Part shown: in pieces, positions 16,008 through 42,890 of the stretch | Numbering within the stretch: position 1 is the stretch's first letter | Layout: each line of letters starts with the position of its first letter | Origin: an uncultured Schlesneria sp. | GTDB lineage: Bacteria > Planctomycetota > Planctomycetia > Planctomycetales > Planctomycetaceae | DNA length: 44,253 bases | Assembly (NCBI GenBank): GCA_903904835.1 | Contig: CAIVEI010000026.1 | Span: forward strand, 1 to 44,253 | Direction: 5' to 3' | Translations under genes and position numbers: made by a program | The notes under the pieces: generated by a model | Seen by the model: only the letters and a program-made list of their open reading frames with translations | Told to the model about the DNA's origin: nothing | Database searches by the model: none

Positions 16008-16092
16008 GTGCCGCTGCATCGGAGTCTTAGGAGATGAGTGTCTTCTCCCTTCAAAGAGCACTGCGTGACAGCAGACGGTCATACAGTGGCAT
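16008..16092. repeat. Dual 30-nt hairpin element, diverged copy
   Basis: It has the same plan as the clean copy at 40734-40823. A left hairpin (16012-16040, one base short and partly decayed) and a right hairpin (16059-16088: CACTG/CAGTG outer, TGAC/GGTCA inner) are bounded by GTGCCGCTGCAT and ATACAGTGGCAT. It lies just after the giant gene and before the convergent PLP enzyme gene. Confidence 0.75.
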
Positions 16093-22716: not shown

Positions 22717-22818
22717 GGGTACCACGGTTTTGGATTCTTCGACAAGGCCGTGTCTTCATGGCTCGACAACGGCTCCGAAGAGCACGGCCTTACCGAAGAC
22801 GGTAAAACCGTGGCACCC
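22717..22818. repeat. Dual 30-nt hairpin element, CACGG subtype
   Basis: Left unit 22723-22752 (CACGG...CCGTG) and right unit 22783-22812 (CACGG-CCTTACCG...CGGTAA-CCGTG) are each exactly 30 bases, separated by 30. GGGTACCACGGTTTT and AAAACCGTGGCACCC also pair as an outer stem. The plan equals that of the CACTGC subtype at 40734 with different bases in the stems. A decayed end (CCAGTGGCAC) lies just before it near 22688. Confidence 0.8.
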
Positions 22819-24839: not shown

Positions 24840-24964
24840 TTCTTTCCCCAACGACCAATTTATCGTTGCGGAATGATGACAGATCTGCGGCGACTGCCAC
24901 AGCCTATCTGTATAAATTCAATTAGCGCGATCGCGTCACCAGTTGTTTGCTCAAAACCAAAACC

Positions 24965-24994
24965 CACTGAGTGACCTAAGACGGTCATTCAGTG
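24965..24994. repeat. Solo 30-nt hairpin unit of the dual-hairpin family
   Basis: CACTGA (24965-24970) pairs with TCAGTG (24989-24994), and an inner GACC/GGTC pairs around TAAGAC. The unit is exactly 30 bases. Compared with the right unit at 40790-40819, the outer stem has changed on both sides together (CACTGC/GCAGTG to CACTGA/TCAGTG), which supports selection for the fold. Confidence 0.8.
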
Positions 24995-25048
24995 ACTCCA
25001 TTTGATATCGAAGAACGGTTTTCCGACAAAAGCTCTTACAACGGCAAT

Positions 25049-39795: not shown

Positions 39796-40566
39796 TTAGT
39801 TACTGGATGGACGTTTGGGTCGTCCATTCGGTGGCCCGCCTGGCCCGCCCGGCCCACCGTCACGTCCGCGATTTCCGCCAGGGCCGCCTGGGCCACCCGG
39901 CGGAGGCCCGAACCCCTCGGGACCACCAGGACCGCCGGGGCCTCGGTTCTTCATCTCTTCCAATTGCTGCTTCTGATCGGATGTCAAAATCTTTGCCAGG
40001 CGCTTGTCGACGTCTTTTTGCAATGCCGCAAGAGAAGCTTTTTGTTCCCTCGAAAGATTCAACATCTCTTGAACACGGCTCGGCAAGACCTGGCCAATCG
40101 GCGGCGGGCCACCCATACCTGGGCCGCCCGGTCCACCTGGGCCACCCATACCCGGTCCACCAGGTCCGCCTGGCCCACCAGGTCCACCCGGACCGCGACC
40201 TTCTGGACCGCCCGGCCCGCCCCCTTCAGGACCGCGCCCGCCTGGGCCTCCCTGGCCCATCGCAGCCGATTCTTTGTCAAACGCGGCCTTTAATTCTTCT
40301 TTGGTGACGACACCGTCCTTGTTGGCATCAGCCCGATCAAACATCGCCAATAACCGTGGATCAGTCATTTCGTCCTTCGAAAGTTGACCGTCCTGATTCG
40401 TATCGAGTGTCATCATTCGATTGATAAACGCAGTCGAATCGACCGGCGCACCATTACCTCCACGACCACCCTCTGGCCGACCTGGCGGTTGTGCGACCGC
40501 TGATGCGACCACCATTAAAGCTCCGCCGATCGTCGCGAATGTCGCCAGTCCAACGATATTTCTCAT
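39796..40566 (-). CDS. Exported EF-hand protein with Gly/Pro-rich repeats and a Spy/CpxP-like helix
   Basis: The 256-residue protein has a signal peptide (about 5-26, ending AVAQ). Two calcium-binding EF-hand loops follow (DTNQDGQLSKDE at 55-66 and DANKDGVVTKEE at 80-91). A Gly-Gly-Pro-repeat region covers about 104-150. The helical section at about 163-205 (LNLSREQKASLAAL, ILTSDQKQQLEEM) resembles the LTxxQ pattern of Spy/CpxP. A second Gly/Pro-rich tail ends the protein. AGGAA precedes the ATG at good distance. It is likely a periplasmic calcium-responsive protein. The GGP repeats are not strict collagen triplets. EF-hand plus Gly/Pro proteins are common in planctomycetes; their role is not known. 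Confidence 0.85.
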   Translation of the reverse strand: MRNIVGLATFATIGGALMVVASAVAQPPGRPEGGRGGNGAPVDSTAFINRMMTLDTNQDGQLSKDEMTDPRLLAMFDRADANKDGVVTKEELKAAFDKESAAMGQGGPGGRGPEGGGPGGPEGRGPGGPGGPGGPGGPGMGGPGGPGGPGMGGPPPIGQVLPSRVQEMLNLSREQKASLAALQKDVDKRLAKILTSDQKQQLEEMKNRGPGGPGGPEGFGPPPGGPGGPGGNRGRDGGPGGPGGPPNGRPKRPSSN

Positions 40567-40608
40567 GTCAAATTCCTGTGATTAAAAGTTGCCGGTTTTC
40601 ATGTCGAA

Positions 40609-40686
40609 TCGGCTTCCAGCCGACGAGATTCGTAGCGTCGGCTTCCAGCCGAATGTATTCGCAATTCGTAGTATGGGCTTCAGCCC
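40609..40686. repeat. Three short GGCTTCCAGCC hairpins
   Basis: TCGGCTTCCAGCCGA occurs at 40609-40623 and again at 40638-40652, and a variant GGGCTTCAGCCC at 40675-40686. The last two are preceded by ATTCGTAG. They form a small tandem set of stem-loops upstream of the EF-hand gene. Confidence 0.8.
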
Positions 40687-40733
40687 GTACACTCAAAGCC
40701 TTAATACAATTTTCAAAAAGCGATCAACCGACC

Positions 40734-40823
40734 GTGCCACTGCATCGGAGTCTTCTCCGACGCAGTGACTTCGCGTTGTCATCGAACAGCACTGCGTGAC
40801 CGAGTACGGTCATGCAGTGGCAC
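40734..40823. repeat. Dual 30-nt hairpin element, best-preserved copy
   Basis: Left unit 40738-40767 is CACTGCAT, inner hairpin CGGAG-TCTT-CTCCG, then ACGCAGTG. Right unit 40790-40819 is CACTGCGT, inner hairpin GACCG-AGTA-CGGTC, then ATGCAGTG. Outer ends GTGCCACTGCAT and ATGCAGTGGCAC are perfect inverted repeats. Because each arm can also pair with the other unit, the whole can fold as two separate hairpins or as a cloverleaf with an outer stem. Confidence 0.9.
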
Positions 40824-40843
40824 AACTCTTGTCGCGCCAATTC

Positions 40844-41530
40844 TTATTTTTCAAACGGAGCGTCCTCAGGAGTTCGCCCAATGATGATGTCAAACCGAGC
40901 GGCATATTCACCAATCTTCGATTCCTGAATCGGCTTGAAATCCACCATCAGAAGTTCGCGATCAATCAAGTCTCGGGTCCCATTGAAAACGCCATCCCGA
41001 ACATTCCCTTCATGACCTCGAATGACAAGCTGAGTCGTCAATAGTTTGCGATCACCCTTCTTCACCATCACATGAATGTGCGGAGCAGGTCGACCGGGAT
41101 AGGGGACTGGCTTAATCGTTCGAAACCGATATTCGCCCGTTGATGCCGTCGTGAACCGACCAAAACCCTGAAAATTCTGATCCCGAGTCTTCTGCTTCGG
41201 AACGCTGTCCGACGTATGCAGATAGACCGCATTCGCATCGCACTGCCAGATCTCAATCGTCAGATCTTTTAGCGGAGTTCCGTTCTCACTGAGAACTCGT
41301 CCGGTCAAATGAGTGATCTCGCCAATGGCCGGAGTAATATTATCGTTGATAATCAGTAAATCATTGTCCTGATCCAGTGGCAACTTGTCCGGATAAAACG
41401 GCCCTTCAGTCTGCGGAGGAGTACGGAAAAGTTGCTCGGCAAACAGACCCGGGGTGGTCAGTAGCGCTGTTCCAAACGTCGCATTCCGCAAAAAATGCCG
41501 GCGTGAGAACGGGGACGAATTGAAATTCAT
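40844..41530 (-). CDS. Tat-exported intradiol ring-cleavage dioxygenase-like protein
   Basis: The start is set at the ATG at 41530, preceded by AAAGG and directly exposing a Tat signal (SRRHFLRNATFG); the frame continues to 41599. The 228-residue product has the intradiol dioxygenase (protocatechuate 3,4-dioxygenase/catechol dioxygenase) core. TEGPFYPDKLP opens it, LTIEIWQCDANAVYLH carries the first iron-ligand tyrosine region, and GEYRFRTIKPVPYPGRPAPHIHV holds further Tyr and the two His of the non-heme Fe(III) site. Exported forms are frequent in planctomycetes and are of uncertain substrate, perhaps aromatic parts of complex polymers. Confidence 0.88.
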   Translation of the reverse strand: MNFNSSPFSRRHFLRNATFGTALLTTPGLFAEQLFRTPPQTEGPFYPDKLPLDQDNDLLIINDNITPAIGEITHLTGRVLSENGTPLKDLTIEIWQCDANAVYLHTSDSVPKQKTRDQNFQGFGRFTTASTGEYRFRTIKPVPYPGRPAPHIHVMVKKGDRKLLTTQLVIRGHEGNVRDGVFNGTRDLIDRELLMVDFKPIQESKIGEYAARFDIIIGRTPEDAPFEK

Positions 41531-41914
41531 GTGAAACCTTTCTGGGTGATTTCGTTTTTTTTGCACCAACCTTATCACGTAAAGGTCGTCGGCCCGCATC
41601 AGATACCGCCGTAATTTATCAGGAATTCAGGTTCTGAACGGATCATTTTCGCAAGCCGCCTTTTACCCCCGTTTTGTTTCCGGGGATTTGCTTGACTTCA
41701 ACTGCACAACCCCGTCTGATTGATCGGCGAAGTCTGTGGCTCAAAACACTGATATCAGTCCTCGAACCATGGCTCAAAACACAGGAAAACCGCGTGAGTA
41801 AATGCTCGCCGAACAATTGGCAGAACGAGCGGTTTTCGGTTGGACAAATGATCTGGCACGATACACTGTCCTGTGACTTTATTTCATCCCTTTCCGAAAA
41901 ACGGGGTTGTCAGC
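41531..41914. other. Divergent promoter region between dioxygenase and STAS genes
   Basis: These 384 bases hold no gene. TGGCTCAAAACAC occurs twice, 33 bases apart (41737-41749 and 41770-41782), a candidate operator pair, with a palindrome TGATATCA between them. A possible promoter for the STAS gene is at 41840-41867. Confidence 0.45.
41840..41867 (+). promoter_or_regulatory. Possible sigma-70-type promoter of the STAS gene
   Basis: TTGGACA (41840-41846) and TACACT (41862-41867) resemble -35 and -10 boxes with 15-16 bases between them, upstream of the start at 41915. Planctomycete promoters are poorly conserved, so this is tentative. Confidence 0.3.
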
Positions 41915-42289
41915 ATGAGTGCGAAAATCTCTTTCGAATCAGAAGTCATCGACGGTGACATCCTCGCGATCGTCCTCCGAGGCGATCTGGACTCGGTGAC
42001 CACTCCTGAATTTGATCAGGAGATCCAGCGGCATCTGGAAGCGGGCCATAAAAAAATCATTATTGACTGTCGCTATATGGGTTACATTTCCAGCATCGGC
42101 ATTGGTTCATTGGTCGCATTGAAAACCAGACTGGCGAAAAAAGGAGGTACCGTCAAACTGGCGGCCATCCAAGGCCCCGTCATGCAGGTTCTTCGCCTCG
42201 TCCGCCTGGATAAGGTGCTCGATATGTACGGCGATCTCGAATTTGCAAGACAATCATTCCACGACAAAGAACCATCTGCAGAAGCCTAA
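41915..42289 (+). CDS. STAS-domain anti-sigma factor antagonist
   Basis: The 124-residue protein is a single STAS domain of the SpoIIAA/RsbV type. VLRGDLDSVTTPEFDQEIQ is the first block and IIIDCRYMGYISSIGIGSLVALK contains the loop with the phosphorylatable serine (Ser59 by position). Such proteins bind anti-sigma kinases when unphosphorylated and so free a sigma factor. The ATG at 41915 gives a normal-length protein; the ribosome binding site is only GGGG. A frame open from 41873 is an artefact of the leader. No kinase or sigma gene lies nearby in the window. Confidence 0.92.
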   Translation: MSAKISFESEVIDGDILAIVLRGDLDSVTTPEFDQEIQRHLEAGHKKIIIDCRYMGYISSIGIGSLVALKTRLAKKGGTVKLAAIQGPVMQVLRLVRLDKVLDMYGDLEFARQSFHDKEPSAEA

Positions 42290-42593
42290 CGCGTCGCTCA
42301 AGACTTAAAGCTCGGGTTGTGTGCAACTGCATCGGAGTCTTCGGAGACGCAGTGTCTTCTCTTTTTTCAAGGCAATCGAAAAGCACTGGGTGGCCAAAGA
42401 CAGCCATCCAATGGCACACGAAAATTGAGATGAGACAACGCACCAGCCAAACAGCACAGCCGATCCCGCAACGGCGCAGCCGTTTTCTACGCGTCGCATG
42501 ACGGGCTGAAAATTGGTTTATCGTTCGCGCATTGATTCGCAAGCTAGCGGTTGACAAAAAAAAGCCTAAGGCATTGAGATCAACAAACCTTCG
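42290..42593. other. Intergenic stretch holding a dual-hairpin element
   Basis: The 304 bases between two convergent genes contain the repeat at 42321-42417 and little else that I can identify. No clear terminators are seen. Confidence 0.5.
42321..42417. repeat. Dual 30-nt hairpin element with compensatory stem changes
   Basis: Left unit 42325-42354 (AACTGCAT, CGGAG/CGGAG region, ACGCAGTG) and right unit 42384-42413 (CACTGGG, TGGC-CAAAGACA-GCCA, TCCAATG). In the right unit the inner stem is TGGC/GCCA where the copy at 40734 has GACCG/CGGTC, and CACTGG pairs with CCAATG apart from one mismatch. Paired positions have changed together. Confidence 0.8.
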
Positions 42594-42890
42594 TCATTCG
42601 GCCACAATCAAAACATCACCCGGCCCCATATCGACAGCAATTTTCAGCAGCGCTTGAGCAATCAAAGTCGAGCCTTCCGATAATTCAAATGTCGCGAGAA
42701 CCGCTTCGAGATCATCCCGCAAAGCGAGTCCATCGTCAGCGTTCCCCTGCTCAATCAGCTTTTCCAGCTCAGAAATATTGTCAAAAGCCAGCAACGCGTT
42801 TTTGAATTCCGACCACTCACTGGTGGTCGTAGAAATCGGTCCGGCATCAACCACCCCGGCAGCGGACTTGATTCGTGCCACAACGCTCAT
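42594..42890 (-). CDS. Small hypothetical protein
   Basis: The ATG at 42890 has GGGGA at seven bases' distance, supporting a real gene of 98 residues. The product is acidic and mostly helical (EFKNALLAFDNISELEKLIEQG, DDLEAVLATFEL), without a signal peptide, membrane segment or known motif. I do not recognise it. It is convergent with the STAS gene and preceded by a long repeat-rich stretch. Confidence 0.55.
   Translation of the reverse strand: MSVVARIKSAAGVVDAGPISTTTSEWSEFKNALLAFDNISELEKLIEQGNADDGLALRDDLEAVLATFELSEGSTLIAQALLKIAVDMGPGDVLIVAE

Follow-up and report, generated by a model that had tools for sequence, protein, structure and literature searches.

A double-hairpin repeat family of Schlesneria, very probably a non-autonomous palindromic mobile DNA element

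The double-hairpin sequence at positions 40734–40823 belongs to a real repeat family, as a preliminary description of this DNA had observed, and the family very probably represents a non-autonomous palindromic mobile DNA element of Schlesneria, akin to MITEs and REPINs, with a core that occurs within at least two different sets of transposon ends. Positions refer to the window, that is, the whole 44,253-nucleotide stretch analysed, which is contig 26 of the 8.18 Mb, 211-contig genome of an uncultured Schlesneria sp. (G000); all copies of the element located in it are given on the plus strand.

Results

An alignment of copies found by BLAST defines a core of ~97 nt that consists of two inverted, non-identical hairpin units and a variable spacer. 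Unit A has the consensus GTGC-CACTGC-ATCGGAGTCTTCTCCGAC-GCAGTG and is followed by a spacer which begins with TCTTC, continues as a variable stretch and ends with GAAGA, while the consensus of unit B is CACTGG-GTGACCGAAGACGGTCAT-CCAGTG-GCAC. In the tag-first reading GTCTTC is the loop of both units, and the stem of each has an a.c mismatch in the identical position. The plan of 30-nt units first described stands, with the correction that each unit carries, beyond its 30 nt, an extra tag of 4 nt (GTGC ahead of unit A, GCAC behind unit B); the two arms had also been taken for near-copies of one another, which they are not, units A and B being different and inverted.

The copy at 40734–40823, which served as the BLAST seed and scores 99.5 bits (E 8e-26) with the covariance model R1, divides into unit A at 40734–40767 (tag GTGC and hairpin CACTGC...GCAGTG with loop GTCTTC, delimited by the sequence and by alignment A1, made from the first 30 copies with L016, L020, L027 and L030 left out for an incomplete or shifted end), a spacer at 40768–40789, the length of which differs between copies in the core alignment, and the inverted unit B at 40790–40823 (hairpin CACTGC...GCAGTG and tag GCAC), placed by the alignment and by compensatory stem changes. 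Its flanks are unlike those of the complete CTAG-ended element at 42286–42446 (103 bits, E 7e-27 for the core; matched by eye to the consensus of young copies), in which a left arm (42286–42320), core (42321–42417) and right arm (42418–42446) can be distinguished; the DNA directly to its right, ~42447–42540, is likewise repetitive and recurs at many places in G001 and G002. Further core copies lie at 16008–16092 (75.9 bits, E 6e-19) and, with a CACGG stem variant, at 22717–22816 (79.1 bits, E 7e-20 for a match spanning 22719–22816). A decayed copy comprising a single unit B is found at 24933–24998 (31.9 bits, E 4e-6) and a weak remnant of unit B at 2078–2160 (21.3 bits, E 0.004; 22.8 bits with nhmmer), near which a tRNA gene (Rfam RF00005) occupies 2255–2329 of the minus strand. 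R1 therefore matches all six of the elements previously grouped as one family, four with two units and two weaker single units, the E values being those of a search of 444 kb with a model built from 29 copies that count the window's four two-unit copies among its training rows. The alternative cloverleaf fold was likewise recovered, in that the computed minimum-energy RNA fold of 40700–40860 is a four-way cloverleaf (z −4.9).

A BLAST search with the 40734 copy alone gave 39 other places in G000 at E ≤ 4.7e-12, among the best 40 of 101 first-look candidates, which were those scored. The preliminary description had called for a covariance-model search and would have been refuted by a genome that held no further copies; all 150 candidates scored with R1 in G000 (of 3217 from the first look) match, the worst at E 2.6e-7, and with one place matched on both strands they represent at least 149 places. 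A count over 400 kb of own-genome sequence gave 15 places at E ≤ 0.01, from which ~300 copies per genome can be estimated, a figure that may be high, the sampled contigs having already appeared in match lists. Under stricter filters R1 has matches in 12 of the 14 other genomes of the genus. Only one of 22 genomes from other genera of the family is positive, with four matches, as is one of 22 from elsewhere in the class, with a weak match, giving 15 positive rows of 59 in the whole survey, own genome included. An exact 30-base pattern occurs in 93 stretches of the genome collection, 92 of them in three uncultured Schlesneria bins; the lone exact match elsewhere, in a Bacteroidia bin (L324), is probably a binning error or a contaminating contig. 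At L113, on contig 2 of G001, the core forms a cluster with several copies spaced 131–133 nt apart by a common linker, a case of tandem growth.

The stems of these copies covary. In the two-hairpin model of 29 cores 95.6% of cells are paired, and changes on both sides of a pair number 24, against a mean of 7.7 in shuffles and at most 5 with slid partners. The whole-element model of 38 copies (alignment A2, comprising 38 of 40 listed copies, with L113 and L019 left out) has 85.1% of cells paired and 43 both-side changes against 21.1 in shuffles and 25–33 when slid, while the pairs with such a change number 20 against 14–18 slid, a thin margin; in both models the shuffled controls ignore relatedness, which the slid controls keep, and the structure was drawn from members of the alignment, so that the comparison with slid versions is tilted in its favour. 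Stem changes are compensated beyond the shuffled and the slid controls alike, in agreement with the covarying stems first described and not with covariation that goes no further than shared ancestry. In the copy L252, unit B together with its outer tag has become perfectly palindromic, as though through template switching.

The two hairpins of young copies stand on a further long stem, formed by arms that extend 34 nt to the left and 29 nt to the right of the core, and the element as a whole measures ~160 bp with ends CTAGTGCGTTGTCAA. The young copies of G005 carry the extension CTAGTGCGTTGTCAAGACTTAAAGTTCGGGTTGT to the left of the core and CCGAATCTTTAGCGTTGACAACGCACTAG to the right, and one of them, the 160-nt copy at L100, folds as single-stranded DNA into the outer stem and two hairpins at −49 kcal/mol (z −10.6). 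Both ends are recognisable in 35 of 82 distinct full-core copies, and this CTAG-ended type is seen in G000, G001, G002 and G005 and in at least one copy of G003. Its terminal inverted repeats and length of less than 200 bp are those of a bacterial MITE. No target-site duplication of 3–12 bp was detected in 33 CTAG-ended copies (2890 length/offset tests, best z 2.67), L100, L106 and L231, with near-perfect ends, have none, and a separate duplication test of the type, over 200 combinations, gave a lone 4-bp signal (8 where 4.5 were expected) to which we attach no weight. The end motif, at ≤ 1 mismatch, has 66 matches in G000, G001, G002 and G005, and the reversed pattern has 16. Seventeen of the 20 end-motif places fetched from G005, G001 and G000 hold a core or partial core within ~300 nt and three (L256, L258, L260) do not; six of the other matches lie in G002, and the remainder are tied to known copies by position. 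On our reading, the 66 matches in the four genomes include no facing pair 0.5–5 kb apart such as an autonomous partner would present, and the associated transposase that the preliminary description had proposed to look for was not found for the own-genome type. A second palindromic family, with ends of about CTCAGACCAAAGTAGCCATCATCGCTCCGCGTGATGAGCA, lies inside or beside copies at L377, L365, L246, L251 and L111.

We conclude that the element moves because orthologous sites in related species lack copies, including those corresponding to 40734 and 42321. For six young G005 copies the flanks, joined minus the element, were searched in G000–G004 and G006; four (L097, L099, L100 and L106) have contiguous empty sites in G000, G001 or G002, the site of L095 is occupied in all three, and L101 gave partial matches only. 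The element is missing from the empty-site alignments, some of which can be read as having a single CTAG/CCAG-like site, at a divergence of ~20% that leaves the ends not placeable to the base. Positions 602–646 of a joined-flank query belong to another short repeat, with dozens of matches in G000, G001 and G002. For the own genome, 14 sites were searched in G001 and G002 and eleven of these were aligned, with 24965, L005 and L024 left out; a further site from the joined-flank search was aligned beside five of them. The copies at 40734, L014, L023 and L004 are absent from both relatives, the orthologous intergenic stretch for 40734 being strongly diverged; 42321 has an empty site in G001 and a site filled by another repeat in G002; 16008 is absent in G001 and has a diverged copy in G002; and 22717 is present in G001 and not in G002. 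Copies are found in one or both relatives at L008, L012, L017 and L019, that of L012 in G002 appearing in the opposite orientation. Insertion polymorphism between relatives, a further property of bacterial MITEs, is thus present.

A different form of the element occurs in G010, where the core, in its CACGG stem variant, lies within different arms, CAGGGCCATCGCCTTTTTCAAATTGGG, and the ends are CAGGGCCATCGCC. A 21-nt piece of these arms occurs 132 times in G010 at ≤ 2 mismatches and has zero matches in G000, G011 or G012; by eye, the core of copies in the last two genomes lies between arms that are different again or shorter. In 28 distinct complete G010 copies, chosen from 32 loci via near-exact end motifs, the flanks repeat at exactly 10 bp, with an identity of 0.761 against 0.285 ± 0.035 for re-paired flanks and slight rises also at 9 and 11 bp. 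All ten bases are duplicated in 11 of the 28 copies and at least eight in 19, while five have two or fewer matching. This fixed-length duplication is seen in G010, not in the own-genome type.

ISAs1 elements typically make 8–10 bp duplications, and among the PF01609 and PF13808 loci examined in G000, G005 and G010 (24 loci, 21 distinct) the G005 locus L417 proved to be an ISAs1 element (NF033564, 404 bits) with ends CAGGGCAATCGCA and a 10-bp duplication, ACCCGTATCC. Over its first 13 bases this element agrees with the G010 ends at 11 positions, which has a chance probability of 1e-5 for one random 13-mer, before allowing for 21 loci. Within G010 itself PF13808 (ISAs1) has no match and the sole PF01609 locus lacks the G010 element ends; ends shared with an autonomous element of the same genome were found neither in the four-genome end-motif search nor at the G010 PF loci, and most of the genomes are drafts, from which multi-copy insertion sequences can be missing.

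All copies had been described as intergenic. This holds for 15 of 18 places in 444 kb, which lie outside called genes, and less well on the short loci, where 28 of 82 copies are inside some ORF; calls were made with a naive ORF caller (coding fraction 0.87 over 444 kb), and we take these ORFs to be mostly spurious.

Discussion

The mobile palindromic element that was one half of the preliminary reading is supported by the many intergenic copies, the covariation, the empty orthologous sites and the 10-bp duplications in G010. We envisage that the two inverted hairpins of the core, which in complete copies sit at the tip of an outer stem formed by the two inverted arms, are moved by a transposase supplied in trans, with the ends, and perhaps the folded structure too, as its recognition sites. 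Copies would be inserted into intergenic DNA, often near gene ends, and old copies would decay to single units. An ISAs1-type transposase may have moved the G010 form and some other enzyme the CTAG-ended form of the window genome, and the structure of the element presumably matters as DNA.

Whether the mover could instead be a RAYT, acting on the element as a REPIN, in which two inverted REP units travel together as single-stranded DNA, has to be weighed with care, and we regard it as rather unlikely. As characterized in PMC3116915, REPINs are inverted doublets, extragenic and of high copy number, with a variable spacer and compensatory changes, all of which apply to the Schlesneria element, whose palindromic units form an inverted doublet outside genes. 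Each unit moreover has a 5′ tag and the same a.c stem mismatch in the tag-first orientation, and the CTAG-ended type leaves no duplication. The tag is GTGC, however, and not GTAG, GTGG (or CGTC), while the G010 form makes 10-bp duplications, a footprint not known for REPs. Y1 genes are present in all 16 genomes searched, with 15 in G000, and eight loci among 80 Y1 places have a one-sided core match within 600 nt (L036, L037, L142, L150, L155, L156, L165 and L177, with two core HMMs on 77 loci), a count that comes from part of all Y1 genes, the 80 places being ~73 distinct with ~7 listed twice. None of the 80 has core matches within 600 nt on both sides, and this result, with R1 applied to 63 Y1 loci and to 30 loci of relatives of one RAYT (in part the same places) before the HMMs, counts against a RAYT as the mover; L137 has matches on both sides, but ~1.3–1.4 kb away. 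Nine loci were in addition read by eye. Of the own-genome RAYT loci, the five inspected for repeats have other palindromes, as do L165 and L177 beside the RAYT gene, and those at L036 and L037 are of another kind. One RAYT has units upstream in G001 and G002 (L150, L156) that are missing in G000 (L038). In G005, whose copies are the youngest, the best relative of this RAYT is 46% identical and has an in-frame TAG. A RAYT-like gene at L038, L150, L156 and L176, one location shared by G000, G001, G002 and G003, precedes what, from its translated sequence, we take to be an imuA-like gene. The probability of a RAYT mover is raised a little by RAYT-bearing segments that, by eye, lie inside core copies: at L177:1262–2140 (G011) a RAYT with its own palindromes interrupts a core copy, with GTCTCACCGC on both sides of the segment, and, less clearly, a similar segment at L165 ~1270–2125 (G012) has core pieces on both sides. 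The core would here be either a landing place for RAYT segments or the relic of a link between core and RAYT. The Rfam 'sRNA' Acido-Lenti-1 (RF01687) has matches at L032:2056–2102 and 2257–2302, which form an inverted pair next to a RAYT gene, and at L113:1131–1177, a repeat in the stretch holding the element cluster; this RNA family may be a RAYT-type REP.

The other half of the preliminary reading, a structured RNA, and with it a terminator or mRNA-stabilising element kept by the host, is very improbable. The computed folds are stable, and copies lie by gene ends, with a stop codon exactly in the terminal tetranucleotide at 8 of 78 facing gene 3′ ends (5 of 41 on the A side and 3 of 37 on the B side; 74 copies, naive ORF calls); upstream of the 42286 element the ORF at 41873–42289 likewise has its stop TAA at 42287–42289, within the terminal CTAA of the element. 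Three terminator-like sites in 40500–42600 are all in or beside the two elements there, but this is not above shuffles (3 vs 2.5). Orthologous copies at five sites differ, by eye, mostly by uncompensated changes, although at L019, counter to this trend, the relatives have changed on both sides of unit A, and at other orthologous sites copies are absent altogether. Outer-stem mismatches are balanced, with 65 G-T against 63 A-C, and therefore favour neither strand as RNA; most hairpin mismatches come from two fixed G-T pairs (32 and 33 cells), the others (3 G-T vs 0 A-C in A, 9 vs 5 in B) being too few to judge. It is this lack of strand bias in the outer stem, together with the lack of any Rfam match to the element, that leads us to a mobile DNA rather than an RNA gene.

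For the mobile DNA element favoured here, the two kinds of ends raise the possibility, which we advance tentatively, that conservation concerns the double-hairpin core and not the transposon ends, two or more unrelated end sets with different insertion chemistry having taken up the same core. One set, in G010, is ISAs1-like with 10-bp duplications and the other, in G000, G001, G002, G005 and at least one G003 copy, is CTAG-ended without duplication. Both arm types could alternatively form one lineage, in which the arms gradually diverged and the footprint of the CTAG copies was lost by decay. The inner arm beside the core (about TCGGGTGCC) does look alike in both types, but L100, L106 and L231 are without duplication despite near-perfect ends, while 19 of 28 G010 copies keep at least eight of ten bases, and we judge a single lineage improbable. 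If the core is indeed the conserved part, the folded core would be a portable module that helps elements spread, and it might present hairpins at replication forks or make insertions at gene ends harmless. Elements of the REPIN type and of the MITE type are generally regarded as distinct and as using different enzymes, and one core with both kinds of footprint in a single genus would offer a natural experiment on the role of the hairpins. The family also provides an under-studied phylum with a clear repeat, and public metagenome bins allow its insertions to be placed in temporal order.

No publication on a Schlesneria double-hairpin repeat was found among the best literature matches, and comparison is therefore with systems from other bacteria. 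With REPINs and BIMEs the element shares an inverted pair of tagged hairpins, a variable spacer, extragenic location, hundreds of copies, compensatory changes and decayed singles; it differs in its GTGC tag, in the long outer arms of complete copies, in that no RAYT bracketed by two full units was found and in the 10-bp duplications of one species. Bacterial MITEs such as RUP, Correia/NEMIS and ERIC are likewise shorter than 200 bp with inverted ends and duplications (the latter as in G010), and the resemblance of the element ends to those of a full insertion sequence parallels that argued for RUP and IS630-Spn1 in PMC2229807; unlike them, the Schlesneria element has a conserved double-hairpin core, and its own-genome type has neither duplication nor known partner. 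YPAL (RU-2) of Yersinia, compared here by description, is about 168 bp, palindromic and intergenic with empty and filled sites, but its duplications vary from 3 to 26 bp (PMC2229807). The Tn3-derived TIMEs are similarly miniature elements, which generate mosaic non-autonomous transposons, although they have Tn3 ends and no double-hairpin core figures in their description (PMC4133298). Among these systems the Schlesneria element is near REPINs in its build, with MITE-type footprints in one species, G010.
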